A DNA stretch of 64,000 nucleotides from Micromonospora sp. WMMD1128 (GTDB taxonomy: Bacteria; Actinomycetota; Actinomycetes; Mycobacteriales; Micromonosporaceae), in the NCBI RefSeq assembly GCF_027497235.1, contig NZ_CP114902.1, positions 2,307,501 to 2,371,500 on the forward strand. The letters run 5' to 3'. Under the pieces are notes generated by a model. It was not told the origin of the DNA and did not search any database. It was given only the letters and a program-made list of their open reading frames with translations. Shown here in pieces: positions 47,933 through 64,000 of this stretch. A program made the position numbers and the translations under genes. How positions within the stretch are numbered: position 1 is the first letter of the stretch; each line of letters begins with the position of its first letter.

Positions 47933-49207
47933 ATGGGTGTCTCCATCTCCCTCGACGACCTGCTCGGCGAGGAGGTGCGGCGCGACCCCTACCCGTTCTA
48001 CGCCCGGCTGCACGACCTGGGTGAGGCGGTCGCGCTGCGGCCCGACGACCCGCACGCCCTTGTCGTGCACGGCTACCGGGCGGTCAACCGGGTGCTGCGG
48101 GATCCGGTCTTCCGGGTGCTCGGCGGCGACTACCTGGACCGGGCCGGCATCCGCTGGCGCGCGCACCCGGCGATCCGGATCCTCCAGACGTCGATGCTGA
48201 ACGCCGCGCCGGGCGACCACCTCCGGGTCCGGCAACTGTTCAGCCAGGCGTTGACCCCGCGCCGGGTGGTCGCGCTGGAGCCGGCGATCGAGCGGATCGC
48301 CGACGGACTGCTCGACGGGCTCGACGCGGCGGGCGCGGCCGGCCGGCCGGTCGACTTCATGGAGGCGTTCGCGCTGCGCCTGCCGAGTGACGTGGTCGGG
48401 GAGCTGCTCGGTGTGCCGGAGCGGGACCGGGCGTGGTTCCCGGCCCGGGTCCGGACGTTCGACGCGGTGCTGGAGATCGGCCGCCGCTCGATGCGGGAGG
48501 TGCGGGCCGCGAACGTCGCGGCGACGGAGCTGACCGCGTACTTCACCGGGTTGCTGGCCGAGCGCCGGGCGCGCCCGCGCGAGGATCTCGTCTCGGCCCT
48601 GGTGGGGATCCGCGACCGCGACCCCGACCAGCTCTCCGCCGACGAGCTGCTGGCCAACCTGATCATCATGTACAACGCCGGGTTCCGCACCACCGCGAAC
48701 CTGCTCGGCAGCGGCCTGGTGCTGCTGCTGGAGCGTCCGGACACGGTGGCCGCGCTGCGCGCCGACCCGTCGCTCGCCGCGTCCTGTGTGGAGGAGATCC
48801 TGCGGTACGAGCCGCCGGTGCACTTCGCGCTCCGGTACGCCGCCGCCGACACCGAGGTCGCCGGCCTGCCGGTGCCGGCCGGCGCGACGGTGGTGGTGCT
48901 GACCGGCGCCGCCAACCGGGATCCGCGCCGGTTTCCCGATCCCGACTCGTTCGACCCGTCCCGGCCGGACAACCGGCACCTGGCGTTCAGCGCCGGGCCG
49001 CACCACTGCTTCGGCGCGGCCCTGGCCCGGGCGGAGGGCCGGCTGGTCCTGCCCCGCCTGCTCGACCGCTTCCCGGCGCTGGCGCTTGCCGCCGAGCCCG
49101 GCGAGCGACGCCAGCTCATGCTGCGCGGGTACGACCGCCTGCCGGTGCGACTGACCGCGCCGGCCCGGCACCGGCCGATCGGCGCCTTGCCAAACCATGC
49201 CGATTGA
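47933..49207 (+). CDS. Cytochrome P450 with unusual I-helix
   Basis: Soluble bacterial P450 of 424 residues. The haem loop FSAGPHHCFGAALAR and the K-helix EEILRYEPPVHF are intact. In the I-helix the usual A-G-x-(D/E)-T reads NAGFRTTANLL, with Arg where the proton-relay acid should be, so oxygen activation or the reaction type may be altered. GAGGAG precedes ATG 47933. First gene of the biosynthetic cluster, followed by a carrier protein and ketosynthase on the same strand; the substrate could be an ACP-bound acyl chain or the terpenoid. Confidence 0.92.
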   Translation: MGVSISLDDLLGEEVRRDPYPFYARLHDLGEAVALRPDDPHALVVHGYRAVNRVLRDPVFRVLGGDYLDRAGIRWRAHPAIRILQTSMLNAAPGDHLRVRQLFSQALTPRRVVALEPAIERIADGLLDGLDAAGAAGRPVDFMEAFALRLPSDVVGELLGVPERDRAWFPARVRTFDAVLEIGRRSMREVRAANVAATELTAYFTGLLAERRARPREDLVSALVGIRDRDPDQLSADELLANLIIMYNAGFRTTANLLGSGLVLLLERPDTVAALRADPSLAASCVEEILRYEPPVHFALRYAAADTEVAGLPVPAGATVVVLTGAANRDPRRFPDPDSFDPSRPDNRHLAFSAGPHHCFGAALARAEGRLVLPRLLDRFPALALAAEPGERRQLMLRGYDRLPVRLTAPARHRPIGALPNHAD

Positions 49208-49246
49208 GTAAGGTCAATTTCACGCTGTGGAAAGGACACACCGGCC

Positions 49247-49507
49247 ATGACCGATGAGATCCGCGCGTTCCTGCTCGCCGCTCTGACCGAGATGAAATAC
49301 GACGTCAGTGACGTCGACGACGACACCGTGTTCGGCCCGGCCGGCCTCGACGTGGACTCCCTCGGCCTGGCCGAGCTGGCGGTGCGGGTGGAGGACCGGT
49401 TCGGGGTGGCGTTCGACGACGACGAGGCGGAGATGCTCGCGATGATGACCCTCGCCGAGTTCTGCCGGGCGGTGGACCAGCGCATCCAACCGGCGTCGGC
49501 GCACTGA
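49247..49507 (+). CDS. Acyl carrier protein
   Basis: Stand-alone ACP of 86 residues; Ser38 in GLDVDSLGLAEL is the phosphopantetheine site, and the four-helix pattern and acidic surface (FDDDEAEMLAMM) are typical. It lies 40 bases after the P450 and 15 bases before the ketosynthase with AAAGGA as ribosome site. Probably carries the acyl unit extended by that ketosynthase. Confidence 0.92.
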   Translation: MTDEIRAFLLAALTEMKYDVSDVDDDTVFGPAGLDVDSLGLAELAVRVEDRFGVAFDDDEAEMLAMMTLAEFCRAVDQRIQPASAH

Positions 49508-49521
49508 CCGGGCGTCGCGGC

Positions 49522-50766
49522 GTGCGCGAGCCCGTGACGGTCACCGGCATCGGGCTGGTGAGCCCGGTCGGCGCGACCTCGGGCGAGGTGTTCGACGCGG
49601 TGTGCGACGGGCGGTCCGGGCTGTCCCGGCCGCCGGCCGACCACCCGGTCCACGGGGTGGTCGACGTCGCCGCGTTCGCCCCGCCGATCGACCCGGCGAG
49701 CGTGCTGCCCGGCCCGGAGTCCCGTGTCGTGGACCGCTCGATCGTCATGGCGTTGCGCGCGGCCGGCGACGCGCTCGCCGACGCGGGACTGCGCATCGGC
49801 CGGGACGTGGACCCCTACCGGGCGGCGGTCATCGTCTCCGGCGTCGGCGGCCTGTCCACCCTGGCCGACCAGGTGCTCCAGCGAGCCGGGCGGGGCCGGT
49901 TCGGGGTCAGCCCGTACATGCTGCCCGGGACGCTGCCGAACATGGGTGCGGCACGCATCGCCATCACGTACGGCATCCGCGGCTACACCTCGTCCATCGG
50001 TACGGCGTGCGCGGCCGGCGCCCAGTCCGTCGGCGAGGCCCTGCGGATCCTGCGCGCCGACGAGGCGGACGTGGTCCTCTGTGGATGCGCGGAGGCGCCG
50101 CTGTTCCCGGCGTTCGCCGACGCGTTCGGCAACGCCCGGGCGCTTGCTCGCGGCTGGGCCGACCCGACGGTCGCGAGCCGGCCGTTCGACCGCCGCCGCA
50201 ACGGCCTCGTCCTCGGTGAGGGCGCCGGGGTGCTGGTGCTGGAACGCGCCGCGCACGCCGCCGCGCGGGGTGCCCGCCGCCACGCCGACGTGCTCGGCTG
50301 GGGCGCGACGAACGACGCGTACCATCCGACCACGCCGCGGCCCGACGGCGCGGGCGCGGCGCACTGCATGCGGATGGCCGTCCGCGACGCCGGCCTGCGT
50401 CCCGACGACATCGGATACGTCAACGCGCACGGCACCAGCACCAAGGCCGGCGACGCGGCCGAGTTGGCCGCGCTCGCCGACGTGTACGGCGCGCACTCGC
50501 CGCCGCTCAGCTCGACGAAGGGCGTGACCGGGCACATGCTCGGCGTCTCCGGCGTGATCGAGGCGGCCATCGGCGTCGAGGCGCTGCGGCGGGGCCTGCT
50601 GCCGCCGACGCACAACCTGGACGACCCGGACCCGGCCGGCGACGTCGACCACATCCGCGGCAAGCCCCGGGAGGCCGCGGTGGACGCCGTCCTGTCCAAC
50701 TCGTTCGGCTTCGGCGGCCACAACGTGAGCCTCGTCCTGGGCCACCCGGCGTCGTCGCCCGGCTGA
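49522..50766 (+). CDS. Beta-ketoacyl-ACP synthase (KAS II type)
   Basis: Ketosynthase of 414 residues. Catalytic Cys163 is in SSIGTACAAGAQSVG, the histidines in VNAHGTSTKAGD and KGVTGHMLGVSG, and the C-terminal NSFGFGGHNVSLV is complete, so it should be active for decarboxylative condensation. It is alone, with no chain-length partner, ketoreductase or acyltransferase nearby, so it probably performs one or few extensions, borrowing other activities from fatty acid synthesis. Confidence 0.92.
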   Translation: MREPVTVTGIGLVSPVGATSGEVFDAVCDGRSGLSRPPADHPVHGVVDVAAFAPPIDPASVLPGPESRVVDRSIVMALRAAGDALADAGLRIGRDVDPYRAAVIVSGVGGLSTLADQVLQRAGRGRFGVSPYMLPGTLPNMGAARIAITYGIRGYTSSIGTACAAGAQSVGEALRILRADEADVVLCGCAEAPLFPAFADAFGNARALARGWADPTVASRPFDRRRNGLVLGEGAGVLVLERAAHAAARGARRHADVLGWGATNDAYHPTTPRPDGAGAAHCMRMAVRDAGLRPDDIGYVNAHGTSTKAGDAAELAALADVYGAHSPPLSSTKGVTGHMLGVSGVIEAAIGVEALRRGLLPPTHNLDDPDPAGDVDHIRGKPREAAVDAVLSNSFGFGGHNVSLVLGHPASSPG

Positions 50767-50779
50767 ACCCCCGGCCGGG

Positions 50780-52090
50780 TCAGCGGAGGGTGAGGACGGT
50801 GGCGGTGGGGTGGGTGGTTGCGGTGAGCGTGAAGTGGGGGGTCAGCATGTCGACCACGTAGTCGAGGTCGGCGACGAACGGCACCGGCAGCAGCGCCCGC
50901 TGGTCGAGGTCGCTGTGGGTGGCGACCAGCTCGATCCGGTCGGCCTTGAGCAGCCCCCGGGTCAGGAACGCCGGCAGGTCCTCGGGGAGCAGGCACCGCC
51001 ACAGGTCCACGTTGACGATCAGGTCCAGCGAGCCGGTCTTGAACTGTTGCAGGACGGTGCCGAGCAGGTGGGAGTTGGTGTCGTCGGGCGGCGCCGCGTG
51101 GTCGAACGTGTGCGAGCCCGCGCCGAGCGTCAGCGTGGACACGCCGTTGCCGACGACCAGTGCCCGGGCGGTCGCCAGCTCGTCGCGGACCGCGGCGGGC
51201 AGCGCCGCCGGTCGCCCCAGCCCACCCCGGCGGTACGCGTCGATCGCGTCGCCGTAGAGGCGGATGCGGCCCAGGTGCCGGCCGAACGTGTTGATCGCGT
51301 AGAGCACCTCGACGTCGTAGCGCAGGTGTTTGCGCAGCAGGTATTTCATGTTGTCCATCGAGGCCAGCCCGTTTGTGGTCCGGCGGAAGTGCGGGAGATG
51401 GTAGGAGAGGGCGTCGACGTCGAGCCGGAACAGCTCGGGCGGGGCGCCGTGCAGGTGGAAGACCCGGTAGAAGAACTCCAGGTCCTCGAAGCCCCACTTG
51501 ACCATGGCCTCGTCGAAGCCGCCGACCCGGCGGAACGACTCGTGGTCGACGGAGGCGTTGTGCGTCAACCCGAGCACCCAGGGCGCGCTCGGGAAGTCCC
51601 GCATCCGCTGCGGGTGGGAGGTGTCCTCCAGGCGCGGGTCGCCGCGTTCGGCGTCCAGCATCGCCGGCTCGACCGGCTCGCCCCGGCGCAGCGCGTCCGC
51701 GCCCGCCCAGTCCAGGTCGTGGCGGGCCCCGAGCAGGACCCCGGGCCGGCCGGCGCGTGCGGCGTGGAAGTCCCGGTGCCGTTCCAGCAGCCGGGGGTGG
51801 GCCACCGTGTCGGCGTCCAGGAACATCAGCGTGTCGGCGCGGGCGCGGGCCGCCGCCGCGTTGCGGTTGGCGCTGCGCCCCCGGTTGTGCTCGCTGCGGA
51901 CGTAGTCGACGGTGAGCCGGTCGGCGTACTTCTCGACGATCGGGCGCAGCGGCACGGCGGAGCCGTCGTCGCCGACGACGACCTCGAAGTCGTCGCGCGG
52001 CAGGGTCTGCCGGGTGAGCGAGTCGAGGGTGGCGTCGAGGGCGGCGCCGTTCTCGTGCGCGGGCACCACCACGCTCAGGCTGGTGGGCAT
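50780..52090 (-). CDS. Family 2 glycosyltransferase with an additional C-terminal domain
   Basis: A 436-residue protein: GT-A domain (1 to about 245) with LSVVVPAHENGAAL, VVVGDDGSAVPLRP, FLDADTVAHPRL (DxD) and the acceptor-side WGFEDLEFFYRVF. The remaining 180 residues are not part of the GT2 core; ALVVGNGVSTLTLG followed by LDLIVNVDLWRCLLPED resembles a decayed Rossmann-type methyltransferase. It overlaps nothing and starts two bases after the ACP stop, in an operon with ACP and phosphopantetheinyl transferase. Confidence 0.82.
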   Translation of the reverse strand: MPTSLSVVVPAHENGAALDATLDSLTRQTLPRDDFEVVVGDDGSAVPLRPIVEKYADRLTVDYVRSEHNRGRSANRNAAAARARADTLMFLDADTVAHPRLLERHRDFHAARAGRPGVLLGARHDLDWAGADALRRGEPVEPAMLDAERGDPRLEDTSHPQRMRDFPSAPWVLGLTHNASVDHESFRRVGGFDEAMVKWGFEDLEFFYRVFHLHGAPPELFRLDVDALSYHLPHFRRTTNGLASMDNMKYLLRKHLRYDVEVLYAINTFGRHLGRIRLYGDAIDAYRRGGLGRPAALPAAVRDELATARALVVGNGVSTLTLGAGSHTFDHAAPPDDTNSHLLGTVLQQFKTGSLDLIVNVDLWRCLLPEDLPAFLTRGLLKADRIELVATHSDLDQRALLPVPFVADLDYVVDMLTPHFTLTATTHPTATVLTLR

Positions 52091-52092
52091 GC

Positions 52093-52374
52093 TCAACGCG
52101 GGGTGGAGTTGGCGACGATGTGGTCGGCCAGGTCGGCGAGCGTGGCCATCTGGTCCTCGTCCAGATCCTCCACGTCGATCTGGATCTCCAGCTCGTCCTC
52201 CAGCTCGAGCAGCAGCTCCAGCGCCAGCGAGGAGCTGAGGCCCAGCTCGTCCATCAACTGGGTCCGCTCGGTGACCGGGGTGGCTGGCCTGAGCATGCGG
52301 GTCAGCAACGCCGTCAGGCAGGCGACGATCCGCTCGCGCGACGGGGACGTGGTCGACGTGTCGTGCCCTAGCAC
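52093..52374 (-). CDS. Acyl carrier protein with atypical attachment motif
   Basis: Carrier protein of 93 residues with acidic helix II-III region (LLLELEDELEIQIDVEDLDEDQM). The D-S-L motif is replaced by S-S-S (Ser47-Ser48-Ser49); by alignment with helix II, Ser48 would take the phosphopantetheine. GTG 52374 lies seven bases inside the 3' end of the phosphopantetheinyl transferase gene, so translation is coupled to the enzyme that would activate it. Confidence 0.8.
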   Translation of the reverse strand: MLGHDTSTTSPSRERIVACLTALLTRMLRPATPVTERTQLMDELGLSSSLALELLLELEDELEIQIDVEDLDEDQMATLADLADHIVANSTPR

Positions 52375-53105
52375 CGATGGCCCCGCGGGTCGCGCGTGCG
52401 CTCCAACATGGAGTCATCAGAGCAAAGAAGATCGGTGAGTGTCAACGGGTGGAACTCGACCGCGTACGCGGCGTCACCGGCGAGCGCCACCGCCGCCCGG
52501 TACGCGGCCGGCGTGGCCAGGTCGGTCAGGCGCTGCCGGGCGGGCACGTCGACGCAGGTGACCATGTCGTCCGGGTGCACCGGCACCGCCAGATTGGGCC
52601 AGAGGCGGCCCCCGGCGGCCTTGACCGCCGCCTCCTTGCGGACCCACAGCCGGGTGAACCGGTGCGCCCGCTCGGCGGCGTCGGCCCCGCCGGCCACGTG
52701 TTGCGCCTCCCCGGGGTGGAAGAAGCGCGCGGCCAGGGGCACCGGGTCCCGACCGGCGGGCGGGTGCTGGAGGTCCACCCCGACCGGGCGGTCGGCGCTG
52801 ACCGCCACCGCGACGAGGTCGCCGGAGTAGGACAGGCTGGTGTGCGCGCCGGCCCACGGCCCGGTCAGTGCCGGCTTGCCGTGCCGGCCGGGCCGCCAGG
52901 TGAGCGCCTCCGGCGGCGCGCCCACGGTCCGGGCGGCGAGCAGCCGCAGCGCGCCGTGCGCGACCGCGAACCGGTCCCGCAGCGCCTCGTCGCCGAGCGC
53001 GGCGCCACGTGCCTTCTCGGCCGGGTCGAGCACCGCCCGGCACCGGGCCAGCTCGGCGGGCGACGCCGCGACCGGAAGGATCCAGACCCGTACGGCGTCC
53101 CGCAT
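52368..53105 (-). CDS. 4'-phosphopantetheinyl transferase (Sfp type)
   Basis: A 245-residue Sfp-type enzyme that attaches the phosphopantetheine arm to carrier proteins. Motifs are WRPGRHGKPAL and SLSYSGDLVAVAV, the Mg-binding VGVDLQ, and FTRLWVRKEAAVKAAGG, in which the common W-x-x-KEA is complete. ATG 53105 was chosen as the first start with homology. It heads the minus-strand trio (transferase, ACP, GT2) and is divergent from the condensation-domain gene. It supports local activation of both cluster ACPs. Confidence 0.9.
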   Translation of the reverse strand: MRDAVRVWILPVAASPAELARCRAVLDPAEKARGAALGDEALRDRFAVAHGALRLLAARTVGAPPEALTWRPGRHGKPALTGPWAGAHTSLSYSGDLVAVAVSADRPVGVDLQHPPAGRDPVPLAARFFHPGEAQHVAGGADAAERAHRFTRLWVRKEAAVKAAGGRLWPNLAVPVHPDDMVTCVDVPARQRLTDLATPAAYRAAVALAGDAAYAVEFHPLTLTDLLCSDDSMLERTRDPRGHRC

Positions 53106-53135
53106 GGACGGCAGCGTAACGGCTCCGATCGGACG

Positions 53136-53167
53136 TTGACATCGGCCGATACGCGTTGCTCTGATAG
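53136..53167 (+). promoter_or_regulatory. Putative promoter of the condensation-domain gene
   Basis: TTGACA at 53136-53141 and CTGATA at 53161-53166 (19-base spacing) end six bases before ATG 53172, which would give a very short leader or a leaderless mRNA. The 10-bp palindrome ATCGGCCGAT overlaps the -35 box (53141-53150). Confidence 0.4.
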
Positions 53168-53171
53168 GCCG

Positions 53172-54581
53172 ATGATCGCGCAGACGGCCGAGGCGCAGGT
53201 CCCCGTTCCGTTCGCCGGTGCGGGCGCCGGCGCCGCGCCCCTGACCTGGGGACAGAAGGCGATCATGCAGGACATGCGGGAGACCGGGTGGACGCACAAC
53301 GTCTCCGGCGCGCACCCCCTGCCGGCGGGCGTCACGGTCGAGCAGATGGCGGCGGAGCTGGCCGACCTGATGGCCCGGCACCCGGCGCTGCGGATGCGGC
53401 TCGGCGTCGACGACCGGGGCGGGCCGTGCCAGGTCGTGTCGGGCTCCGGCGAGACGGTCCTGGACGTGGTGGACGTCCCGGACGACGCCGACCCGGCCGA
53501 CGTGGCCGCGTTCGCCTACCAGCTCGGTCACGCCCGCCTGCTGGCCCCGTACGACCTCTACCGGGACTGGTCGGTGCGGATGGCGGTGGTCCGGCACCGG
53601 GGCGCGCTCGTGCACCGGGTGCTGACGTTCGACCATCTCGTGGTGGACGGCACCGCCACCTCGCTGCTCCTGGCCGACCTCGGGCTGGCCATGCCGGCGG
53701 TCCGTCGCGCCCGCGACCCGCGTACCGTGCAGATCCTCGACCTGGGGCGGCGGGAGGCGACCCCGCCGTTGCGGCGGGTGAGCGACCGCGCGGTCCGGCA
53801 CTGGGCGTCGCACCTGCGGTCCATCGCGCCGCTGACGTTCGGCGAGCCCACCGCGGGCGGCCGGCAGGGGCACCGGTACTGGCACGGCCGGTTCAGCTCG
53901 CCCGCGGCGTACCTGGCGGTGCGGGCCATCGCACGACGGACCCGGACGGACACCTCGCGCGTCCTGCTGGCGGTCATCGCCGTGGCGATCGGCCGGGCCA
54001 CCGGGGTCAGCCCGCTCACCGCGAAACTCATCGTGGGCAACCGGTTCCGGCCGGGCTTCGCCGAGGCGATCGCGCCGCTGAGTCAGAACGGCGTGCTGAC
54101 CGTCGACACCGCCGGCGCCACGGTGGACGAGGTGGTGGCCCGGGCCCGCCGGGCCTCGGTGACCGCCGGCATGTACGCCTACTACGACCCGGTGGGGCTC
54201 ACCGACCTGGAGGCCGGGCTGGACACCGAGCGCGGCTATCCGGCGCGGGTGACCTGCCGGATCAACGACCGGCGGGTGACCACCCGCGCGGCGGCCGACG
54301 GTGGCGTCCGGGACGAGCCGGTGACCGTGGAGGCGGTCCGGCGTAAGGCGGACGAGACGTTCCTGGTCTGGGACGGCCCGCTGGACCACCTCCACGAGCA
54401 GGTGTTCCTGACCGTCGAGGACCAGCCGGACACGGTGTTCCTCCAGGTGATCTTCGACTTCGCGTGTTTCACCGAGGCGCAGGCGGAGCGGCTGCTGCGC
54501 GGCGTGGAGGAGGTGGCCGTGGAGGCGGCCTTCGACGCCGGCGCGCCGACCCGGGTCACCCCCGGGTCGACCGGCGACTGA
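53172..54581 (+). CDS. Stand-alone condensation-domain protein (PapA-like acyltransferase)
   Basis: A 469-residue protein with the two-lobed fold of NRPS condensation domains and polyketide-associated (PapA) acyltransferases. The catalytic motif reads FDHLVVDGTATS, so the second His and the Asp-Gly are kept and the first His is Asp, as in many free-standing ester-forming members. The C-terminal lobe carries LIVGNRFRPGFAEAI and LSQNGVL. No adenylation domain lies nearby, so it probably transfers an acyl group from a cluster ACP to a hydroxyl group of the terpenoid or sugar. Confidence 0.85.
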   Translation: MIAQTAEAQVPVPFAGAGAGAAPLTWGQKAIMQDMRETGWTHNVSGAHPLPAGVTVEQMAAELADLMARHPALRMRLGVDDRGGPCQVVSGSGETVLDVVDVPDDADPADVAAFAYQLGHARLLAPYDLYRDWSVRMAVVRHRGALVHRVLTFDHLVVDGTATSLLLADLGLAMPAVRRARDPRTVQILDLGRREATPPLRRVSDRAVRHWASHLRSIAPLTFGEPTAGGRQGHRYWHGRFSSPAAYLAVRAIARRTRTDTSRVLLAVIAVAIGRATGVSPLTAKLIVGNRFRPGFAEAIAPLSQNGVLTVDTAGATVDEVVARARRASVTAGMYAYYDPVGLTDLEAGLDTERGYPARVTCRINDRRVTTRAAADGGVRDEPVTVEAVRRKADETFLVWDGPLDHLHEQVFLTVEDQPDTVFLQVIFDFACFTEAQAERLLRGVEEVAVEAAFDAGAPTRVTPGSTGD

Positions 54582-54614: not shown

Positions 54615-55817
54615 TCACCTGTCGTCCCAGGTCACCGGCAGCGACTCCAGGCTGCGTACCACCAGGCCGGGCCGGAACCGCAGCTCCGCCTCGTCGACCG
54701 CGAGCCGCAGGCCGGGCAGCCGGCGCAGCAGGGCGCCCAGCGCCTCCTGCAACTCCATCCGGGCCAGCGCCGCGCCGAGGCAGTGGTGCGGGCCGGCGCC
54801 GAACGCCAGGTGCGGGTTGTGCGCGCGGTCCAGGTCGAGCGTGTCCGCGCCGGGGAACACCGTCGTGTCCCGGTTGGCCGAGGCGATCGCCGGCATCACC
54901 GCCGACCCGGCCGGCAGGCGTACGCCGCCGAGCTCCACCTCCTCGGTGGTCACCCGGGGCAGCAGCACGCCGTTGTCGCCGAGTTGGATGAAGCGGGACA
55001 GCTCCTCGACCGCGCGGGCTACCGCGACCGGGTCGTCGCCGCGCAGCCCGGCCAACTGCTCGGGGTGGCGGGCCAGCACGAGCAGGAACAGGTTGAGCTG
55101 GTTGGTGGTGGTCTCGTGCCCGCCGACGAAGATGCCGGCGGTGACCGACACCAGCTCCCGTTCGGTGAGGTCGTCGTGCTCGTCCCAGGCGGCGATGAGC
55201 GCGCTCATCAGGTCGTCGCCGGGCCGGCGGCGGCGCTCGACGATCATCTCGCGGAAGGCGTCGAGCGCGGCCTGCGGCGCGGCCGGGTCGGCGTCCCAGT
55301 CGCCGACGAGCGCGTCGGACCACTCCCGCACCCGCTCCTGGTCCGCCTCCGGGATGCCGAACAGCTTGCTGATCACGTAGATCGGCAGCGGCGCGGACAG
55401 GTGGGTGATCAGGTCGGCCGGGCGTCCCGCCGCCTCCATCCGGTCGATCATCGCGTCCACGAGCGCGGCCACCGTGGGGCGCAGCTCCTCCACCCGGCGG
55501 ACGGTGAAGGCGTGCGACACCGCCCGGCGCATCGTGGTGTGCCGGGGCGGGTCCATGCCGATGAGCGAGTCCTCGGCGAGCGAGCCGAGTTCCCGGGTCG
55601 GCCGGTTGGGTCCGGCCGCGGCGGCCCGGCTGAACCGCTGGTCGGTGAAGACCCGCCGCACGTCGGCGTGCCGGGTGGCGAGATAGGCCGACGCCCCGTC
55701 GGGCAGCTCGACGCGGGCCACCGGGCAGGTCTCGCGCAGCCGGGTGTAGTCAGGTGACGGGTGGTAGATGGTGGGAGCCGGAGCGAGCGGGTACGGGACA
55801 GGCTGCTGCTGCGTCAT
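54615..55817 (-). CDS. Cytochrome P450
   Basis: Typical soluble actinobacterial P450 of 400 residues (CYP105/107-like): I-helix FVGGHETTTNQL with intact Glu-Thr, K-helix VEELSRFIQLGDNG and haem loop FGAGPHHCLGAALARMEL. Probably hydroxylates the cluster scaffold. It is co-directional with the glycosyltransferase gene upstream (20-base gap) and convergent with the condensation-domain gene. Confidence 0.93.
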   Translation of the reverse strand: MTQQQPVPYPLAPAPTIYHPSPDYTRLRETCPVARVELPDGASAYLATRHADVRRVFTDQRFSRAAAAGPNRPTRELGSLAEDSLIGMDPPRHTTMRRAVSHAFTVRRVEELRPTVAALVDAMIDRMEAAGRPADLITHLSAPLPIYVISKLFGIPEADQERVREWSDALVGDWDADPAAPQAALDAFREMIVERRRRPGDDLMSALIAAWDEHDDLTERELVSVTAGIFVGGHETTTNQLNLFLLVLARHPEQLAGLRGDDPVAVARAVEELSRFIQLGDNGVLLPRVTTEEVELGGVRLPAGSAVMPAIASANRDTTVFPGADTLDLDRAHNPHLAFGAGPHHCLGAALARMELQEALGALLRRLPGLRLAVDEAELRFRPGLVVRSLESLPVTWDDR

Positions 55818-57013: not shown

Positions 57014-57108
57014 GGCCGCAGTCAAATGCCACCAATCCGCGCGCGAAACGGCAGTCCTGGACCACAGATGCTAGGCGATCGGAGTCCGTCCGCGGAAGGT
57101 CGTCGCGT

Positions 57109-57138: not shown

Positions 57139-58329
57139 GTGGTGGAGTCTTACCCGGTGCCGGTCAATTCCGCGCTGCGCCCCTATCCGTTCGCGCCGTT
57201 CACCGGCGACCTCCCCGCCGACCTGCTCGACATGGTCGTCGCCGACCCGGTCAGTCGGGTGCGGCTGCCCGACGGGCGGCCGGCCTGGCTGGTGCTCAGC
57301 TACGAGCACTGCTGCACGGTCCTGGCCGATCCCCGGTTCTCCCGCCTCCCGCCGGGCGCCACCTCGGCGCCGGGCGCCGCCGGCCCCCGGGAGTTGAACA
57401 TGGACGGTCCGGCGCACGCGGCGGTGCGCCGCGTCGCCGGCCGCGCGTTCACCGCGCGCCGCATCTCCACCTTCCGTCCCCGGGTACGGCGGATCGTGGA
57501 CGGGCTCGTCGACGCCATGCTCGCCGGTCCCCGCCCGGCCGACGTGGTGGCCGGGCTGGTGGCGCCGCTGCCGGTGTTCGTGGTGTGCGACGTGCTCGGC
57601 GTGCCGGCCGCCGACCGGCCCCGGTTCTACGCCTGGATCTCCGGCCTGAACTCGGTCACCGCGTACGGCTCGGACGGCGCGGCGCGGGCGCAGGCGGAGC
57701 TGCGGGCCTACCTGGCGGGGCAGCTGACGCGCAAGCGGGCGGAGCCCGGCGACGATCTGCTCTCGGCGTGGGTGCACGGTCAGGACGCGCACGAACTCGT
57801 CGACGCCGAGTTGGTCGAGCTGGCCATGGGCGTGCTGCTCGGCGGCCTGGAGATCAACTCCACGAGCGCCGGCCTGCGCGCGTTGTTCCAGCACCCGGAG
57901 CAGTTGGCGAAGCTGCGCGCGGCCCCGGAGAAGCTCGCCTCGGCGACCGACGAGATCCTGCGTTACACGTCGGTGAGCGCCATGTTCCGGGTCCAGGTGG
58001 TGCGGGAGGACCTGGTCCTCGGCGGCGTCGCGATGCGGGCCGGCGACTGCGTGATGGCGGTCCCGTGGGCCGGCAACCGCGATCCCCGCCAGTTTCCCGA
58101 GCCGCACGTCTTCGACATCGACCGGACGCCCACCGTCCCGCACCTGACGTTCGGCTTCGGGCCGCACTTCTGCCTGGGCACGGCGCTGGGCCGGATGCAG
58201 GTGGAGCTGTCGCTCGGCGCGTTGCTGGCCCGGATGCCGGGGCTGGCGCCGGCGGTGCCGATCGACGAGATCCCGTGGCGGCACGACCGGATGAACGGCG
58301 GCATCGAGTGGTTCCCGGTCACCTGGTGA
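57139..58329 (+). CDS. Cytochrome P450 with E-I-N I-helix variant
   Basis: P450 of 396 residues with haem loop FGFGPHFCLGTALGRMQ and K-helix DEILRYTSVSAMFR. The I-helix reads GVLLGGLEINSTSAGL: the acid is kept but the conserved Thr is replaced by Ile followed by Asn. Such changes occur in P450s that act on unusual substrates or perform reactions other than simple hydroxylation. The GTG start has no clear ribosome site; other starts exist a few codons downstream. Confidence 0.9.
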   Translation: MVESYPVPVNSALRPYPFAPFTGDLPADLLDMVVADPVSRVRLPDGRPAWLVLSYEHCCTVLADPRFSRLPPGATSAPGAAGPRELNMDGPAHAAVRRVAGRAFTARRISTFRPRVRRIVDGLVDAMLAGPRPADVVAGLVAPLPVFVVCDVLGVPAADRPRFYAWISGLNSVTAYGSDGAARAQAELRAYLAGQLTRKRAEPGDDLLSAWVHGQDAHELVDAELVELAMGVLLGGLEINSTSAGLRALFQHPEQLAKLRAAPEKLASATDEILRYTSVSAMFRVQVVREDLVLGGVAMRAGDCVMAVPWAGNRDPRQFPEPHVFDIDRTPTVPHLTFGFGPHFCLGTALGRMQVELSLGALLARMPGLAPAVPIDEIPWRHDRMNGGIEWFPVTW

Positions 58330-58338: not shown

Positions 58339-59202
58339 TCAGTAGCTCTCCACCGCGTTGACCCGGTCCGGCCAGTAGCGCTGGCCGGGCGCCGGGACGT
58401 GGTGCTCCCACCGGGGCGGGTCGCCGGTCGGGTGGTCGCCGAGCACGGTGATGCGCTGCCCGCGCCGGATGCCGTCGTAGTCGTTCACCGCGTAGTGCTG
58501 GGTGACCCGGTTGTCCCACACCGCGACGTCACCCGCCTGCCAGCGGTACCGGCAGGTGAACTGCGGGCTCTCGGAGAACCCGAACAGGTATTCCAGCAGC
58601 GCGTCGCTCTCGTTGCGGGTGAGCTGCGGGATGTGCGAGGTGAACAGGCGGTTGACGTAGAGCGAGCGGCGTCCGGTCTCGGGGTGCACGCGCACCACCG
58701 GATGCTCCGCCCGGCTGGTGAACTCGGTGCCGATCCGGATGACGTGGATGGCGGTCAGCCCGTCGAGCAGGTCCCGCAGCGGCGCGGAGAGCGCCTCGTA
58801 GACCCGGTGCTGGTTGGTCCACATGGTGTCGCCGCCGACCTCCGGCAACTGGATCAGGTGCAGCACCGAGGCGATCGGCGGGCTCTGGTGGAACGTCATG
58901 TCGGTGTGCCACACGTCTACCTTCCCGCCGTCCTCGGAGTCGATCACCACGATCTCCGGGTGCCCGTCGAGCCGGGGCAGGTAGGGGTGCAGCTCCACCT
59001 CGCCGAAGCGGCGACCGAACGCGACGTGCGCCTCCGGGGTCAGTCCGGCCTGGCCGGCGAGGAAGACCACGTGGTGCTTCAGCAGGAGGTCGTGGACGTG
59101 CGCGAAGCCCTCGTCGGTGAGCGTGTTCAAATCGAGGCCGCGCACCTGGACGCCGAGCGCGCCGGTCACGGGCCGGACGTCGACGGCGGTGGAAGTGGTC
59201 AT
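58339..59202 (-). CDS. TauD/TfdA-family Fe(II)/2-oxoglutarate dioxygenase
   Basis: Non-haem oxygenase of 287 residues. Iron ligands are His and Asp in [10 protein letters not shown] and the distal His in [15 protein letters not shown]; the 2-oxoglutarate Arg is in [13 protein letters not shown]. Length and the [12 protein letters not shown] start match taurine dioxygenase relatives. In this setting it is more likely a scaffold hydroxylase, desaturase or ring-modifying enzyme than a sulphur-scavenging one, since no sulphonate transporter is near. Convergent with the P450, 9 bases apart. Confidence 0.88.
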
Positions 59203-59248
59203 CGATGATCCTCCGGTCTGCGCGCGACGGCCCGTCCGCGCATTGTTC

Positions 59249-59258
59249 CACGATCGTG
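59249..59258. promoter_or_regulatory. Short palindrome between dioxygenase and methyltransferase genes
   Basis: CACGATCGTG is a perfect 10-bp palindrome in the 138-base gap between the divergent genes. It may be a regulator site; the length allows chance occurrence. Confidence 0.3.
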
Positions 59259-59340
59259 AATGTCCTCACCACCGTCGGCGTTGACGTGCCGGCCGCGAAC
59301 TTGGGATCATTCGGGGCCGGTGGACCGGGGGAGGAAACTG

Positions 59341-60351
59341 GTGGCGATCGACGGGGACGCGGCGGCACGGCTCGACCGGCTCACCGACCTGGCGACCCCG
59401 TTCGCCGTGCGTACCGCGGTGACGCTGCGGGTGCCGGACCGGATCGCGGCCGGCGTCACCGGCCTGACCGAGCTGGCCGCGGCGTGCGACGCCGACCCGG
59501 CCGCGCTGGGTCGCCTGCTGCGCTACCTGACCCACCGGGGCGTGTTCGCCGAGGTGTCGCCGGACGTCTTCGGGTTGACCGACGTCGGCGCGCTGCTGTG
59601 CGACCGGGACGGCGGCGGCCACGGCGCCGACCTGGACCTGGGTGGTCTCGGCGCCCGGATGGACCTGGCCTTCGCGGGGCTGCCGCACGCGATCCGCACC
59701 GGCGGCCCCGGCTACGCGGCGGTCCACGGCCGCGACTTCTGGGCCGACCTCGACGCGCACCCGGAGCAGCGCGCCTACTTCGACGCGGTGATGCTCAGCC
59801 AGCAGCGGATCACCGCCCCGGAGGTGGCCGCGTGCTATCCCTGGGCCGAGGTGACGCACGTGGTCGACGTCGCCGGCGGCTCCGGTGGGTTGCTGCGGGA
59901 GCTGCTGTGCGCGCACCCGCACCTGCGGGGCACGCTGGTGGACCGCGACGAGCCGGTGGCGACCGCCGCCGCGACGTTCGCCGAGCACGGCCTCACCGGC
60001 CGGGTCGACGCCGTGGTCGGTGACTTCTTCGCCGCGCTGCCGACCGGCGGCGACGTGTACGTGGTGTCCCGCGCGCTCACCGACTGGAGCGACACCCACG
60101 CGACGGCGATCCTGCGCCGCTGCGCCGAGGCGGCCGGCGACACCGGTCGGGTGCTCGTCATCGAGGTGCTGCCCACCATGCCGCACGTGCCGCACCTGTC
60201 CCCGTACGACCTGCGGATGCTGGTGCTTGTCGGTGGCCGGGAGCGCGGGGTGGCCGAGCACGCCGCGCTGGCCGCCGCCGCGGGGCTGGCGCCCCGGCGC
60301 ACCTTCCACGGCTCCGGCGGGCTCACCCTGATGGAGTTCGCCGCGGCCTGA
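59341..60351 (+). CDS. SAM-dependent methyltransferase (O-methyltransferase family 2)
   Basis: A 336-residue enzyme with an N-terminal dimerisation domain (about 1-95, DLATPFAVRTAVTLRVPDRI) and a Rossmann core with motif I VVDVAGGSGGLLRELL, the acidic VDRDEP, and VYVVSRALTDWSD. Relatives methylate phenol or carboxyl oxygens, some act on non-aromatic hydroxyls. GTG 59341 has GGAGG six bases upstream; an in-frame ATG further left has no ribosome site. Confidence 0.88.
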   Translation: MAIDGDAAARLDRLTDLATPFAVRTAVTLRVPDRIAAGVTGLTELAAACDADPAALGRLLRYLTHRGVFAEVSPDVFGLTDVGALLCDRDGGGHGADLDLGGLGARMDLAFAGLPHAIRTGGPGYAAVHGRDFWADLDAHPEQRAYFDAVMLSQQRITAPEVAACYPWAEVTHVVDVAGGSGGLLRELLCAHPHLRGTLVDRDEPVATAAATFAEHGLTGRVDAVVGDFFAALPTGGDVYVVSRALTDWSDTHATAILRRCAEAAGDTGRVLVIEVLPTMPHVPHLSPYDLRMLVLVGGRERGVAEHAALAAAAGLAPRRTFHGSGGLTLMEFAAA

Positions 60352-60404
60352 GCCGCGCCGCGACGGGACGTCCCATACCCACCGGTGCGCGCGGCCATTG
60401 AGGC

Positions 60405-60474
60405 ATTTGGCGGCGCATCGGCCAATTTGGCGAAGATTATCGTCATCGCATTCACCGCCGCCGACGGATTGGCG
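60405..60474 (+). promoter_or_regulatory. Repeated ATTTGGCG boxes upstream of the prenyl synthase operon
   Basis: ATTTGGCG occurs at 60405-60412 and 60425-60432, exactly 20 bases apart (about two helical turns), and ATTGGCG again at 60468-60474. The second lies within the palindrome GCCAATTTGGC (60421-60431). The 210-base gap is richer in A+T than the genes. This arrangement suits an activator that binds same-face direct repeats in front of the terpenoid genes. Confidence 0.5.
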
Positions 60475-60561
60475 CATTTATCGATGGTTGTTCACCGGAG
60501 TTCCGGCCGGTAACGTCTCGCGTGGCGACTAGCCGAGCCTTCGTGAAAGGGTCGACGCGTC

Positions 60562-61581
60562 ATGACCGTTGCTGGATTTACGCGATATCCGCCCTTCATC
60601 GACGACCTGGCCCGAAGCGAATCCGGGCGACTGCTGCACGCCGAACTCGGCCGCCGCTGGCCGGAGACGACCGACCAGCTCGTGACGATCGCCCGGTACG
60701 CGCTGCTGCCGCCGGGCAAGCTGCTGCGCCCGATGATGACGCTGCACGCGGCGGAGGCGGTGGGCGGATCACCCCGGGACGTGCTCGCCGCCGCGCTCGG
60801 CACCGAATACCTCCACGTCGCGACGCTCGTGCACGACGACATCATCGACGCCGACACGATGCGCCGGGGCCGCCCGGCCGTCCCGGTCGCGTTCGGCATC
60901 CCGAACGCCATCGTCGCCGGTGACCACCTCATCTTCTCCTCGTTCCGGGCCATCGTGGACGGTGGCGGCGCGGTCCCGCCGGGCCAGGTCGTCGCCGCGC
61001 TCACCGCGCTCGCCGAGGCGGGGCAGGACCTGTGCCGGGGGCAGGCGATCGAGGCGCAGCTCGTCGGCGACCTGGACGCGGGCGCCAGGTGGTATCCGGA
61101 GATGATCCGCCTGAAGACCGGTTCGCTGTTCCGCGCGGTGTGCCACATCGGCGCGCTCCTCGGCGGCGCGGAACCGGCCGTGGCGTCCGCGCTCGCCCGC
61201 TACGGCGAGCACCTCGGCATCGCGTTCCAGATCCGCGACGACCTGCTGTCCTACGTGGCCACGCCGGAGCAGACCGGCAAGCCGGCGACGAGTGACCTCA
61301 ACAACGGCCGGCCGACGCTGCCGCTGCTGCTGGCGTACGACGCGGCCACCGACACGGCCCGGGTCGAGCTGATGGCGGTGCTGCACCGGCGCGGCGCCGG
61401 ACCCGGCGACGTCGAGTGGGTCACCGCGCTGCTGCGCGAGGTCGACGCGGTGGCGCGGGCGCGCCGGCGGATGGTGGAGCACGCCGAACGCGCCCGCGCC
61501 GAACTGGCCGTGCTCGCGCCGTCGGCGAGCGCGGACGTGCTCGCCGGCATCGCGGCCTGGATGACGAGCGAGACGCGGTGA
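60562..61581 (+). CDS. Polyprenyl diphosphate synthase
   Basis: Trans-prenyl synthase of 339 residues. The first Asp-rich motif is in LVHDDIIDADTMRRGRP and GKLLRPMMTL holds the IPP-binding basic residues. The second motif reads QIRDDLLSY: the third Asp is Ser. Residues four and five before the first motif are small (Thr, Ala), which in this family permits products of C20 or longer. It starts the operon with the UbiA and cyclase-like genes (GTGA and ATGA overlaps) and presumably supplies their substrate. Confidence 0.92.
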   Translation: MTVAGFTRYPPFIDDLARSESGRLLHAELGRRWPETTDQLVTIARYALLPPGKLLRPMMTLHAAEAVGGSPRDVLAAALGTEYLHVATLVHDDIIDADTMRRGRPAVPVAFGIPNAIVAGDHLIFSSFRAIVDGGGAVPPGQVVAALTALAEAGQDLCRGQAIEAQLVGDLDAGARWYPEMIRLKTGSLFRAVCHIGALLGGAEPAVASALARYGEHLGIAFQIRDDLLSYVATPEQTGKPATSDLNNGRPTLPLLLAYDAATDTARVELMAVLHRRGAGPGDVEWVTALLREVDAVARARRRMVEHAERARAELAVLAPSASADVLAGIAAWMTSETR

Positions 61582-62606
61582 GCGTCGCCCGGGCACTGCG
61601 GGCGCACGTCGAGACCTGGCGGCCCTACACGCTCTGGTACGTCGGGCTGGTCGGCCTCGGTGGCGCGGCGGTGGCCGCCGGCCCGCACCACCCGTGGCGG
61701 CTGCTGTCGGCCTGGGCGGCGCCCACCGCCGGCTGGCTCGGCGGCCACTACCTCGGTGACTGGTTCGACCGTGAGCTGGACGCCGGCAGCAAACCGCACC
61801 GGCCGATCCCGTCGAGCCGGTTGGGCGCGCGGACGGCACTGGCGTGCGGCTGCGCCTGCTTCGCCGTCCTCGCGGCGCTGGCCGTCGCGGGCGGCTGGGG
61901 CACCACGGCGGCGGCGCTGCTGGCCGGGGGCGGGATCGTCGCGTACAGCCGCTGGTTGAAGGCGCGGGGGATCGCCGGGAACCTGGTCCGGGGCGCGCTC
62001 GGCGCGGTCGCGCTCCTCTACGGCGCGCTCGCCGTCGGCCTGCCGGCCGACCCGTTCCCGGCGCTGCCCGTCCTGCTGGCGCTGATCGTCGCCTTCTGGT
62101 CGCACGACGCGATGTCCAACTTGGTCGGGGCGCTGCGCGACATCGACGGCGACCGCGCGGGCGGCTACGAGACGCTGCCGGTGCGCCGGGGCGTACCGTT
62201 CGCGGTCCGGACCGTGGTGGCGTTGCACGCCGTCGCCATCGGCGCGGCGCTCACCGCCGGCCTGCTGGCCGACCGCGACGCGCGGCCCGCCTACCTGGCC
62301 ACGCTGCTCGTCGTCGTGGTCGTGGGCGTCGCCGCGTGGACGCCGCTTGTCGCCCGGGGCGCCGGGATGCCCGTCCTGGTGGCGTTGCGCGCCCACTCCG
62401 TCCTGGTCGTCGAACGGGTCGTGCTGGCCTCGGCCGTGGTCGGGCTCGGCCTCGGCGTCGCCGTGCAGCTCCTGCTGGCGCTGCCGATGCTCGCGTTCAC
62501 CTGGTGGGCGCAGCGCGGGATGCGCGTCCGGCACGAACTCGGCCCGCCGACCGCCGGCCTGGCCCTGGCCGCCCACCGTCGAGTGCCCCTGGAGGACGCG
62601 ACATGA
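61578..62606 (+). CDS. UbiA-superfamily membrane prenyltransferase or terpene cyclase
   Basis: Integral membrane protein of 342 residues with eight or nine helices. The two Asp-rich motifs are GDWFDRELDAGSKPHRPIPS and DIDGDRAGGYETLPVRRG, matching UbiA enzymes that ionise a prenyl diphosphate with Mg. Members either attach the chain to an aromatic or sugar acceptor or, in some actinobacterial clusters, cyclise it. No aromatic acceptor gene is visible here, so a cyclase role is as likely as a transferase role. Overlaps both neighbours by 4 bases. Confidence 0.88.
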   Translation: MSVARALRAHVETWRPYTLWYVGLVGLGGAAVAAGPHHPWRLLSAWAAPTAGWLGGHYLGDWFDRELDAGSKPHRPIPSSRLGARTALACGCACFAVLAALAVAGGWGTTAAALLAGGGIVAYSRWLKARGIAGNLVRGALGAVALLYGALAVGLPADPFPALPVLLALIVAFWSHDAMSNLVGALRDIDGDRAGGYETLPVRRGVPFAVRTVVALHAVAIGAALTAGLLADRDARPAYLATLLVVVVVGVAAWTPLVARGAGMPVLVALRAHSVLVVERVVLASAVVGLGLGVAVQLLLALPMLAFTWWAQRGMRVRHELGPPTAGLALAAHRRVPLEDAT

Positions 62607-64000
62607 CCGAGGTGACCGCCGAGGCCGTCGGCAAGGCGATCGCCGCCGGCGCCGAGGCGCTGCTGCGTCGCCAACGCCCCGACGGCGCCTTCGGCGACGA
62701 CCCGCCGGCGTCGGTGCTGGGCACCGCGGGCGCGGTGGCCGCGCTGCACGCGGCCGACCCGACCGGCAGCGCCGACCTCGTCGACGCCGGCGCCGCGTGG
62801 CTGCGTCGGCAGCAGCACGACGACGGCGGCTGGGGCGGCGTGGTCGGCGCGGACAGCGAGGTGGTGCCCACCGCCGTCGCGGTCGCGGCGCTCGCGCTCG
62901 GCGCGCCGGCCGCGAGCGTCGAGGCGATCGCCGCCGGCCGGGCCCGGCTGGCCGCCCTCGGCGGCGTCGACGCCGTCACCGACCGGGCCATCTCGCTGCT
63001 CTGCCGGCAACTGCTCACCATGGCCGGGATGACCGCCGAGGCCGGCCCGCTGCGCCGGCTGCCGCTGGAGATCGTCCTGTTCGACCGGGTCCGTCGCCGG
63101 CGGCTGTCGTTCCGCACCGCGCCCTTCGTCGGCCTCGCCCTGATGCAGGCGGACCTGCTGCCCGCCGGCCGGCTGCGCCGCGCCACGCTGCGCCGGGCCC
63201 GGCCGGTGGCGGTCGGCCTGCTGCGCTCCATCTTCGACCACGAGGGCCGCACCGGCGCGCTGAGCGAGGACCCGTGGCCCGCCGCCCTGGTGCTGCTCGG
63301 CCTGGCCCGCAGCGGCGAGGCGCCGGACATCGCGCGGGCCGTCGTCGGCTGGCTGCGACGGGCGGTACGCCCCGACGGCGCCTGGGACGCGGTGGCGAAC
63401 CTGGACCTGACCCGCTCCGGCTACGCGGTGACCGGGCTGGTCGCCGCCGGGTACGCCGCCGACCCACGCCTGCGTGCCACCCGCGACTTCCTGCACGCCA
63501 CCCAGAAGCCGACCGCGTTCGACGTGCTGGACGTGCCGCCGGGCGGGTGGAGCTACTCCAACGTGGGCGGCTGGCCGGTGACGCTGGAGTCGGCCGAGAT
63601 CCTGTCCGCGCTCGCCGGCCTCCCCGACGCCGACACCGACCCGGTCCTGCGTACCGGCCTGTCCTGGCTCGTCGACCGCCAGGACAGCCGCGGCTCGTGG
63701 AGCCTGTGGGTACGCGACACCCAACTCGCCAACGACGGCCCCTGCCCGGCCATCACCAGCCAGGCCGTCCTCGCGCTGCACGACGCCGGGCACCCGGACG
63801 ACCACCCGGCGATCGCGCGCGCCGCGGCCTGGCTGCTGACCCGGGCGGCGCCCGACGGCACGTTCGAGAACCTCTGGTACCGCGACCACACCTCCGGCAC
63901 GGCAGTGGTGGTGGGCGCGTTGTCGCGCGTCGGCCACGCCCGGCACGAGGTGGTCCGCCGCGCGGTCCGCTGGCTGCGCGACACCCAGTTGCCGGACGGC
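62603..64000 (+). CDS. Squalene-cyclase-fold (class II terpene cyclase-like) protein, partial at right edge
   Basis: The frame is open from ATG 62603 to the window end, giving 466 residues of an (alpha/alpha)-barrel protein with prenyltransferase/squalene-cyclase repeats: QQHDDGGWGG (about 70-79), RQDSRGSWSLW and RDTQLPDG at the edge. In class II cyclases a D-x-D-D-T motif protonates the substrate; the corresponding place here reads N266-L-D-L-T270, so only one Asp remains. It may be a cyclase using another acid or a non-catalytic relative. Translation is coupled to UbiA by ATGA. Confidence 0.82.
   Translation, partial: MTEVTAEAVGKAIAAGAEALLRRQRPDGAFGDDPPASVLGTAGAVAALHAADPTGSADLVDAGAAWLRRQQHDDGGWGGVVGADSEVVPTAVAVAALALGAPAASVEAIAAGRARLAALGGVDAVTDRAISLLCRQLLTMAGMTAEAGPLRRLPLEIVLFDRVRRRRLSFRTAPFVGLALMQADLLPAGRLRRATLRRARPVAVGLLRSIFDHEGRTGALSEDPWPAALVLLGLARSGEAPDIARAVVGWLRRAVRPDGAWDAVANLDLTRSGYAVTGLVAAGYAADPRLRATRDFLHATQKPTAFDVLDVPPGGWSYSNVGGWPVTLESAEILSALAGLPDADTDPVLRTGLSWLVDRQDSRGSWSLWVRDTQLANDGPCPAITSQAVLALHDAGHPDDHPAIARAAAWLLTRAAPDGTFENLWYRDHTSGTAVVVGALSRVGHARHEVVRRAVRWLRDTQLPDG

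Follow-up and report, generated by a model that had tools for sequence, protein, structure and literature searches.

We describe a gene cluster in Micromonospora sp. WMMD1128 that, with a probability of roughly 60%, makes a glycosylated diterpenoid amino acid of the brasilicardin type that receives an acyl group from a carrier protein. The cluster lies in a window of 64,000 nt (positions 2,307,501-2,371,500 of the forward strand of NZ_CP114902.1, assembly GCF_027497235.1; all coordinates below follow window numbering), begins at 47.93 kb and extends beyond the window's end at 64,000. By protein comparison the genome is closest to Micromonospora. Genes were called in the left 47 kb of the window as well, and the study took in four of these that adjoin the cluster. 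The new part would be the acid group, which appears to be built and attached by a different route, while the terpenoid half is probably of the already known brasilicardin kind. More tentatively, at a little under even odds, we suggest that a self-contained, portable acylation cassette has been plugged into a brasilicardin-type pathway, where an acyl group built up on separate carrier proteins takes the place of brasilicardin's aromatic ester.

Genes were assigned to families with Pfam cut-offs and with NCBIfam profiles at their own cut-offs, and folds were predicted by combining AF2 models with Foldseek searches. All of the enzymes named in an earlier note on this DNA were recovered at their positions by Pfam matches above the cut-offs. 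Motif counts given below refer to the 11 same-genus genomes that carry the cyclase. The conserved block opens with a cytochrome P450 (P450a, 47933..49207, + strand; PF00067; FSAGPHHCFG-type heme-Cys motif, 11/11), followed by an acyl carrier protein (ACP1, 49247..49507, +; PF00550; DVDSL-type site, 11/11), a stand-alone FabF/KASII-like ketosynthase (KS, 49522..50766, +; PF00109/PF02801; NF005589 above cut-off; Cys-His-His patterns, 11/11), a family-2 glycosyltransferase (GT2, 50780..52090, −; PF00535), a second carrier protein (ACP2, 52093..52374, −; PF00550; GLSSS-type site, 11/11), a 4′-phosphopantetheinyl transferase (PPTase, 52368..53105, −; PF01648) and a free-standing condensation enzyme (C, 53172..54581, +; PF00668; DHLVVDG-type pattern, 11/11), the proposed ACP-to-glycoside acyl transferase. 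Two further P450s (P450b, 54615..55817, −; P450c, 57139..58329, +; both PF00067) flank an EryCIII-like glycosyltransferase (55838..57025, −; PF21036, PF06722), and beyond them lie a TauD-family 2-oxoglutarate dioxygenase (58339..59202, −; PF02668) and an O-methyltransferase (OMT, 59260..60351, +; PF00891, PF08100), the putative counterparts by role of Bra0 and Bra11. Next come a polyprenyl diphosphate synthase (60562..61581, +; PF00348), probably making GGPP (we infer the chain length, because NCBIfam cut-offs were not reached), a UbiA-family membrane prenyltransferase (61578..62606, +; PF01040; both Asp motifs, 11/11) and a squalene-cyclase-fold (SHC, type II) terpene cyclase (62603..64303, +, past the window from 64000; PF13243, PF13249), whose full length required bases past the window. 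P450-derived glycosyltransferase activators have lost the heme Cys; that residue is kept in P450a in 11/11 genomes, and its TIGR04515 score is 170 bits against a cut-off of 343, so we rejected such a heme-less activator role for it.

Extending the contig to the right, as the earlier note had proposed, added two directly adjoining genes, for a UbiH/squalene-epoxidase-like FAD oxygenase (64300-65568) and a HisC-like aminotransferase (65575-66591), and, after an intervening stretch, six more: g79, a thiolase-fold partner without Cys (3′ end at 85089), a KASIII-like enzyme (86014-86952), a third glycosyltransferase (GT3, 87003-88175), two genes of a DrrA-like ABC transporter (88236-89213 and 89267-89980) and an AMP ligase of the ANL family (90101-91753). 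These genes rule out a cluster end at the window edge. We saw no NDP-sugar genes in this block.

The 17 genes from P450a to the aminotransferase keep their order and strand in all 11 same-genus genomes with the cyclase; the flanks of the block differ among these carriers, except for a few genes in common with two of them (G064 or G072). The right-hand block, from g79 to the AMP ligase, is found in the same 11 genomes: it directly adjoins in eight, with a gap of ~2.4 kb in G064, ~10 kb in G072 and 18.5 kb in the window genome, a distance that makes joint expression of the two blocks in this strain uncertain. Catalytic patterns are kept in 11/11 carriers for most of the enzymes. The P450c pattern is found in 10/11, the remaining genome's extracted P450c being a 15-residue fragment, and some narrower patterns are not universal (TauD HYAVND, 5/11; aminotransferase NPNNP, 8/11; ligase loop, 8/11). 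The shared occurrence and order of the genes far exceeds chance.

The terpenoid half appears to fit the gene roles published for brasilicardin, and likewise the order of the genes in a relative from Nocardia (G474); the likeness is drawn from these two sources and not from the N. terpenica bra sequences themselves. The brasilicardin cluster (bra0-bra12, Nocardia terpenica) is MIBiG entry BGC0000632 (PMC9802219). In the published accounts, bra1-6 provide the core, bra0 and bra11 methoxylation, bra7-9 presumably 3-hydroxybenzoate and bra10 rhamnose (PMC7837296; for Bra0 and bra11 also PMC12185567), and antiSMASH matches to brasilicardin A in Micromonospora are given as 23% and 38% in two papers. 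Aminotransferase, GGPP synthase, UbiA, SHC-fold cyclase, FAD oxygenase and P450 are all present in one block; equating these six families with bra1-6 is our own step, as the accounts give roles rather than families. TauD and OMT are also present, as the methoxylation pair needs, and the TauD protein is 58-81% identical to eight homologues adjoining the same core. In G474, a TauD gene is divergent from a row of aminotransferase, GGPP synthase, UbiA, SHC, FAD and P450 genes, which continues with a PapA5-like acyltransferase, a rhamnosyltransferase-like gene (below cut-off) and an OMT; five core genes of the window are 46-50% identical to those of G474, and the P450 is 35% identical. A TauD search of 150 Nocardia genomes gave hits at E 1e-60 or better in 34; G451 and G474 alone passed 1e-140, and the hit ranked after them had 5e-75. 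The earlier note's reading of a glycosylated, oxidised terpenoid is supported. Its suggestion that no described cluster has this set is not supported for the terpenoid half, in view of the brasilicardin roles (PMC7837296, PMC12185567), and 'unrecognised type' survives for the acyl half only. The cyclase carries a PVTLESAE-type motif in 11/11 same-genus carriers, and D.DD is absent from all 11. Platensimycin-type logic, in which a DxDD cyclase acts first and UbiA then serves as the diterpene cyclase, was set aside on that absence and on the presence of the FAD oxygenase.

We define the acylation cassette as the KASIII-like enzyme with its Cys-less thiolase-fold partner, the two ACPs, the PPTase, the stand-alone KS, the ANL ligase and the free condensation enzyme. 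An acyl group made on the spot, bound to a carrier and handled by a free condensation enzyme had been proposed in the earlier note, and the predicted fold of that enzyme agrees: its AF2 model (pLDDT 86.4) matched condensation domains in Foldseek, with SgcC5 and the enacyloxin chain-release C domain within the top ten rows, and the catalytic His and DG of a stand-alone C fold are present. By sequence, its PDB search was weak (best E 5e-4). When free-standing condensation was searched together with terpene terms in the literature, the phrase was absent among the matches listed. The KASIII-like protein shows weak kinship to FabH-type enzymes, CerJ and ChlB3. Its partner g79 matches no profile of Pfam or NCBIfam. 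An AF2 model of it (mean pLDDT 80.7) resembles thiolase-fold enzymes, with ChlB3 and AbyA1 the nearest (best ChlB3, E 1.1e-9, TM 0.57, rmsd 11.2 over a gapped alignment), a match on which we rejected an unknown fold. None of 14 g79 rows has a Cys directly after DQG, the position of the nucleophile as judged by visual comparison with the KASIII-like protein. Other actinobacterial clusters contain large parts of the same cassette, which would make it, if our reading is true, a portable unit for acylation rather than an isolated case.

In the pathway that we propose, the prenyl synthase would make GGPP, which UbiA would attach to a small head group of three carbons; the UbiH/squalene-epoxidase-like FAD enzyme would epoxidise the chain end, and the cyclase, with a Glu at the DxDD place, would close the rings. 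The HisC-like aminotransferase would then turn the head into an amino acid, TauD and the O-methyltransferase would introduce a methoxy group, as is reported of Bra0 and Bra11, the P450s would oxidise the scaffold, and the EryCIII-like enzyme and GT2, and also GT3, would attach sugars. Alongside these steps, the AMP ligase, the KASIII-like pair, the KS and the two phosphopantetheinylated ACPs may prepare an acyl thioester, from which the free condensation enzyme would pass the acyl group to an amine or to a hydroxyl, the latter probably on a sugar. The DrrA-like ABC transporter is the likely exporter of the product.

That the acyl and terpenoid genes are two independent clusters merely side by side is very improbable, even though each half is found without the other elsewhere and, in three genomes of one family (f2; draft assemblies), acyl genes and cyclase core lie on different contigs. 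The f2 acyl contigs also hold TauD, OMT and P450 genes of the terpenoid kind, and in all 11 same-genus carriers acyl and terpenoid-type genes are interleaved in a kept order, which bears out the single hybrid cluster of the earlier note. The condensation enzyme and the cyclase are carried by the same 11 same-genus genomes among 397 genomes of the order, and the same-genus genomes drawn comprise 11 with both halves and none with one half only. Protein distances of acyl and terpenoid members correlate (C with SHC, r=0.91), as vertical descent alone could produce. The cyclases from clusters with acyl genes fall into a single clade (15 of 70 rows, support 100/100), which the acyl half marks in Micromonospora, Saccharothrix and Labedaea; elsewhere the halves occur separately. 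Among named relatives, KS and C stand beside the core in ten Micromonospora, Labedaea rhizosphaerae and two Saccharothrix, and two further loci have C beside the core and no KS in the stretch covered. Among 57 core loci whose 10-kb flanks are complete, 43 show neither KS nor C of the window's kind, and the acyl cassette occurs in one genome that lacks the cyclase. In M. echinofusca, whose cyclase is 66% alike, the 12 kb covered of a 19-kb contig contain neither KS nor C; further Micromonospora cyclases are 61-65% alike. Separation of the halves in related genomes, which the earlier note had regarded as evidence against its proposal, is thus seen outside the window's clade but not in the same-genus genomes drawn.

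If the core instead led to a phenalinolactone/tiancilactone-type gamma-butyrolactone diterpenoid, and not to an amino acid, the closest parallel would be the locus of the tiancilactone producer Streptomyces sp. CB03234, which carries GGPPS-UbiA-SHC-FAD-TauD at 43-64% identity and shares with our cluster a cyclase without DxDD and a P450. That locus and five like it, however, have no aminotransferase within 10 kb and an LD cyclase motif (these criteria were read off the six loci themselves, not off a paper), the LD rows form a clade of their own (100/100), and the tiancilactone locus has no KS or condensation gene of the window's kind in the 20.8 kb covered. LE, the motif of clusters with an aminotransferase, is the one found in the window along with an aminotransferase, and we give a lactone product little credence. 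It is less far-fetched, if still unlikely, that the acyl cassette builds a part other than a glycoside ester: it could, for example, form an amide at the amino-acid head, the KASIII pair could make a C-C bond, or the ligase could act as a nitrite-dependent diazotase and yield an N-N unit. Such roles are suggested by the ligase's best NCBIfam match, 3-aminoavenalumate diazotase (nearly full length, 436.6 bits, below the cut-off of 975), and by the structural and sequence kinships of the KASIII pair. Against them, no nitrous-acid genes were recognised among the block's families, ANL-family homology leaves the ligase substrate unfixed, and KASIII-like enzymes such as ChlB3 can also shuttle acyl groups between carriers.

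Brasilicardin A, a potent immunosuppressant, comes from a biosafety-level-2 Nocardia with low titre (PMC5159576), and the gene attaching its GlcNAc is described as still missing (PMC7837296). A conserved relative across Micromonospora, Saccharothrix and Labedaea would offer non-Nocardia sources and extra glycosyltransferases. The LE/LD motif, paired with the presence or absence of an aminotransferase, is a candidate for a simple predictor of the head-group type throughout the family, and with the acyl cassette it becomes possible to test whether a free condensation enzyme transfers carrier-bound acyl groups to a diterpenoid.

SgcC5 and the enacyloxin chain-release C domain form esters or amides. 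Our condensation enzyme shares with them the C fold, the stand-alone state, the DHxxxDG pattern and separate carrier proteins nearby, but it is 18% identical to them in structure alignments and sits in a diterpenoid cluster. With highly reducing type II PKS systems (avenalumate and p-coumarate, as outlined in PMC10777205, and cispentacin by NCBIfam matches), the window cluster has in common a stand-alone KS, two ACPs and an ANL ligase. In contrast to their KS-CLF pair and reductive enzymes, the window cluster has a single KS, no reductases accompany it in the block, and no CLF, ketoreductase (KR) or dehydratase (DH) was recognised among the block's families; the equivalog cut-offs of AmcB, AmcF and AvaA6 were not reached. 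To brasilicardin, by published roles, the likeness extends to a diterpenoid core, a dioxygenase plus a methoxylation gene, a glycosyltransferase and acyl attachment, and the sugar genes lie outside the cluster in both, bra also being without NDP-sugar genes (PMC7837296). The bra7-9 genes for 3-hydroxybenzoate biosynthesis and attachment have no counterparts among the families in the block; in their place the window cluster has its ACP/KS/PPTase/KASIII-pair/AMP-ligase/condensation cassette, together with EryCIII-like and GT2 glycosyltransferases and ABC transporter genes.

Pfam searches recovered all of the enzymes named in the earlier note, counting the SHC-fold cyclase that crosses the edge of the window (bases 2,307,501–2,371,500 of a 6.81-Mb single-contig genome). 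The closest named relatives of this cyclase are proteins of Micromonospora. We extended the window rightward by 38.5 kb, continuing its numbering, and called genes with a simple codon-composition script, which gives approximate gene starts. The cluster continues there with a FAD-binding monooxygenase of the UbiH/squalene-epoxidase kind (64300–65568) and a HisC/CobD-like aminotransferase (65575–66591). The aminotransferase, which sits beyond the window edge, alters the likely chemistry. Adjacent to the cluster on the left is an acyltransferase-type gene (45061–46002; NAT_N and GNAT_C domains), which, of the 11 same-genus carriers described next, the window strain shares with G064 alone.

Searching 151 genomes (the strain's own and 150 relatives) with the cyclase gave 13 carriers, of which 11, the strain itself included, share its genus and two belong to another family. 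The 17 genes from the first P450 (47933) to the aminotransferase (66591) keep their order and strand in all 11 same-genus carriers, at 59–96% identity to the window strain in the 10 others, and the flanks of this block are unlike between carriers, save for a few genes common to G064 or G072. The KASIII-like gene at 86 kb matches at 79–88% in the 10 other same-genus carriers, at 69% in the two carriers from another family, and at no more than 56% at all remaining places among the matches listed (30 matching genomes). It belongs to a block of g79 (a thiolase-fold KASIII partner without the Cys), KASIII, glycosyltransferase GT3, two ABC genes and an AMP ligase, the members of which are present in 11/11 same-genus carriers and which immediately follows the aminotransferase in eight. 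The gap before it is about 2.4 kb in G064, about 10 kb in G072 and 18.5 kb in the window strain, where we infer an insertion partly common to G072. By Pfam, this 18.5-kb spacer (66.6–85.1 kb) carries RibD_C and an AEC-type transporter and, by eye, a two-component pair, ABC genes and LysR/TetR-like regulators; its RibD (82%) and g78 (94%) genes also occur in G072.

Within a set of 397 genomes from the order, the cyclase and the free condensation protein C (at least 81%) are carried by one and the same group of 11 same-genus genomes, none having only one of the two. Counting against a fixed unit, the more distant cyclase (66%) of M. echinofusca (L100) has neither KS nor C nearby in the 12 kb examined of its 19-kb contig; Micromonospora cyclases at 61–65% lie outside the neighbourhood comparison. 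Pairwise protein distances, taken without a housekeeping control, correlate at r=0.91 for C versus the cyclase and most weakly with the cyclase for GT3 (0.71), as expected from common inheritance.

With the cyclase as alignment query, 27 of the 397 order genomes gave a match, and we compared neighbourhoods at 14 loci from 13 of them. Eight loci (G308, G407, G391, G295, G418, G425a, G169 and G316) hold the aminotransferase, GGPPS, UbiA, cyclase, FAD enzyme, OMT and TauD, with rearranged order in G169 and G316, and in none of these eight does a match to KS or C exceed 63 bits. The surroundings differ for four distant cyclases (34–44%; G319, G425b, G240 and G245), the G248 locus is a short contig, and the G434 locus has both KS and C. 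The named TauD scan matched 225 stretches, of which 190 were confirmed and the best 80 analysed: 68 of these have the cyclase and 65 the cyclase plus UbiA, the latter accompanied by the FAD enzyme in 63, the aminotransferase in 56 (at the threshold used) and the OMT in 44. The 12 with TauD and no cyclase include some short contigs.

KS and C both stand beside the core at 13 of these best 80 loci (10 Micromonospora, Labedaea L095, Saccharothrix L097, L099), and C only, within the stretch examined, at L096 and L098. C was also found in the genomes of L095, L096, L097 and L099; the L123 and L124 genomes gave no match, and the L101 genome only a weak one at 29%. For the 57 core loci with full flanks, KS or C is present in 14 and neither in 43, the flanks being 10 kb, so that farther genes would escape. 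In the stretches examined, PPTase and GT2 matches are limited to the 10 Micromonospora loci, where ACP2 matches at 72–83% (47–48% in L097 and L098).

Acyl genes also occur away from the core. G356, which is not among the cyclase carriers of the 397-genome search, has KS (73%), C (52%), KASIII (65%), AMP ligase (78%), ACP2 and g79. In three genomes of another family (G143, G149 and G248), the acyl genes are on contigs apart from the cyclase core and share them with TauD, OMT and a P450c-like gene (over two contigs in G143). More distant loci in G104, G213 and G143:C1 add a two-subunit E1-like pair to C, KASIII, ACP, g79 and PPTase, and on a short contig of G098 only this pair, KASIII and two C genes are seen; the E1-type label was Pfam-checked for one subunit only, in L215. 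Much of the acyl cassette is thus portable.

Sets of KASIII-like, g79, ACP and PPTase genes that come with condensation genes and an E1-like pair of two subunits recur in other actinobacterial loci (L249, L252 and L253, and only in part L248). The strain's own genome has a second locus (L257; 2,712,001–2,732,000) with cluster-like KS (63%), ACP1 (54%) and AMP ligase (59%). Further ketosynthase-like genes lie next to these, and inspection by eye adds a biotin-carboxylase-like gene and another two-subunit E1-like pair. A third, near 6.74 Mb (L247:9661–16869), has KASIII-like (53%), g79-like (34%) and PPTase (49%) genes and, by eye, small carrier-protein-like genes.

When 69 cyclases were aligned (68 loci plus the window; two gapped at the motif), DxDD proved absent from all those read. 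Six loci have LD at this position (L112, L113, L116, L119, L124 and L159) and the others read have LE, apart from L132 (ME) and L145 and L156 (both VE); one distant cyclase found in the order-wide search (G319, L067) has ETDDTA there, nearer the classical motif. Of the 57 full-flank core loci, exactly six lack a recognised aminotransferase, and these coincide with the six LD loci; three more without it (L100, L118 and, despite a weak match, L125) are all short stretches. Among L086–L165, LE versus LD tracks aminotransferase presence versus absence at the core loci with full flanks. Tiancilactones were discovered in the strain of L124, according to PMC10301674, and L124 is probably the tiancilactone locus itself. 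A cyclase tree of 70 rows (49 unlabelled; Bra cyclase not included; a long branch for G474) places the LD rows in a single clade and the 15 rows marked as having KS or C in another, each at 100/100 with one change; this is consistent with one event joining the cassette to the latter cyclase clade.

Published work on brasilicardin describes bra1-6 as essential for the core, bra0 and bra11 as responsible for methoxylation, bra7-9 as presumably making and attaching 3-hydroxybenzoate and bra10 as attaching rhamnose, with bra0 divergent from bra1-11 (PMC7837296); PMC12185567 identifies Bra0 as the dioxygenase behind the methoxy group at C16. TauD matched at E 1e-60 or better in 34 of 150 Nocardia genomes, strongly only in G451 (N. 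albiluteola; 1e-152) and G474 (4e-145), the following match being 5e-75. In G474, TauD is divergent from six genes (aminotransferase, GGPPS, UbiA, cyclase, FAD enzyme and P450), after which come a PapA5-like acyltransferase, a rhamnosyltransferase-like gene (under the cut-off) and an OMT. If bra1-6 are those six families, this layout would be the published bra plan minus two genes. We therefore file the cluster's terpenoid half as brasilicardin-type, judged by the published gene plan rather than by bra sequences.

Micromonospora antiSMASH regions similar to brasilicardin A, which may or may not be this cluster, appear at 23% (PMC8146288, Table 5) and 38% (PMC11965639). The accessible parts of these papers and of PMC10301674 and PMC12187853, all touching on brasilicardin and Micromonospora, describe no acyl cassette or product, and we found no description of a diterpenoid core combined with the cassette in the open-access literature searched, most subscription papers falling outside that search. 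The hybrid cluster that the earlier note called of unrecognised type is real, conserved and larger than noted, and half of it is known: it joins brasilicardin-type diterpenoid genes, so assigned by gene plan, to a different and partly portable acylation cassette.
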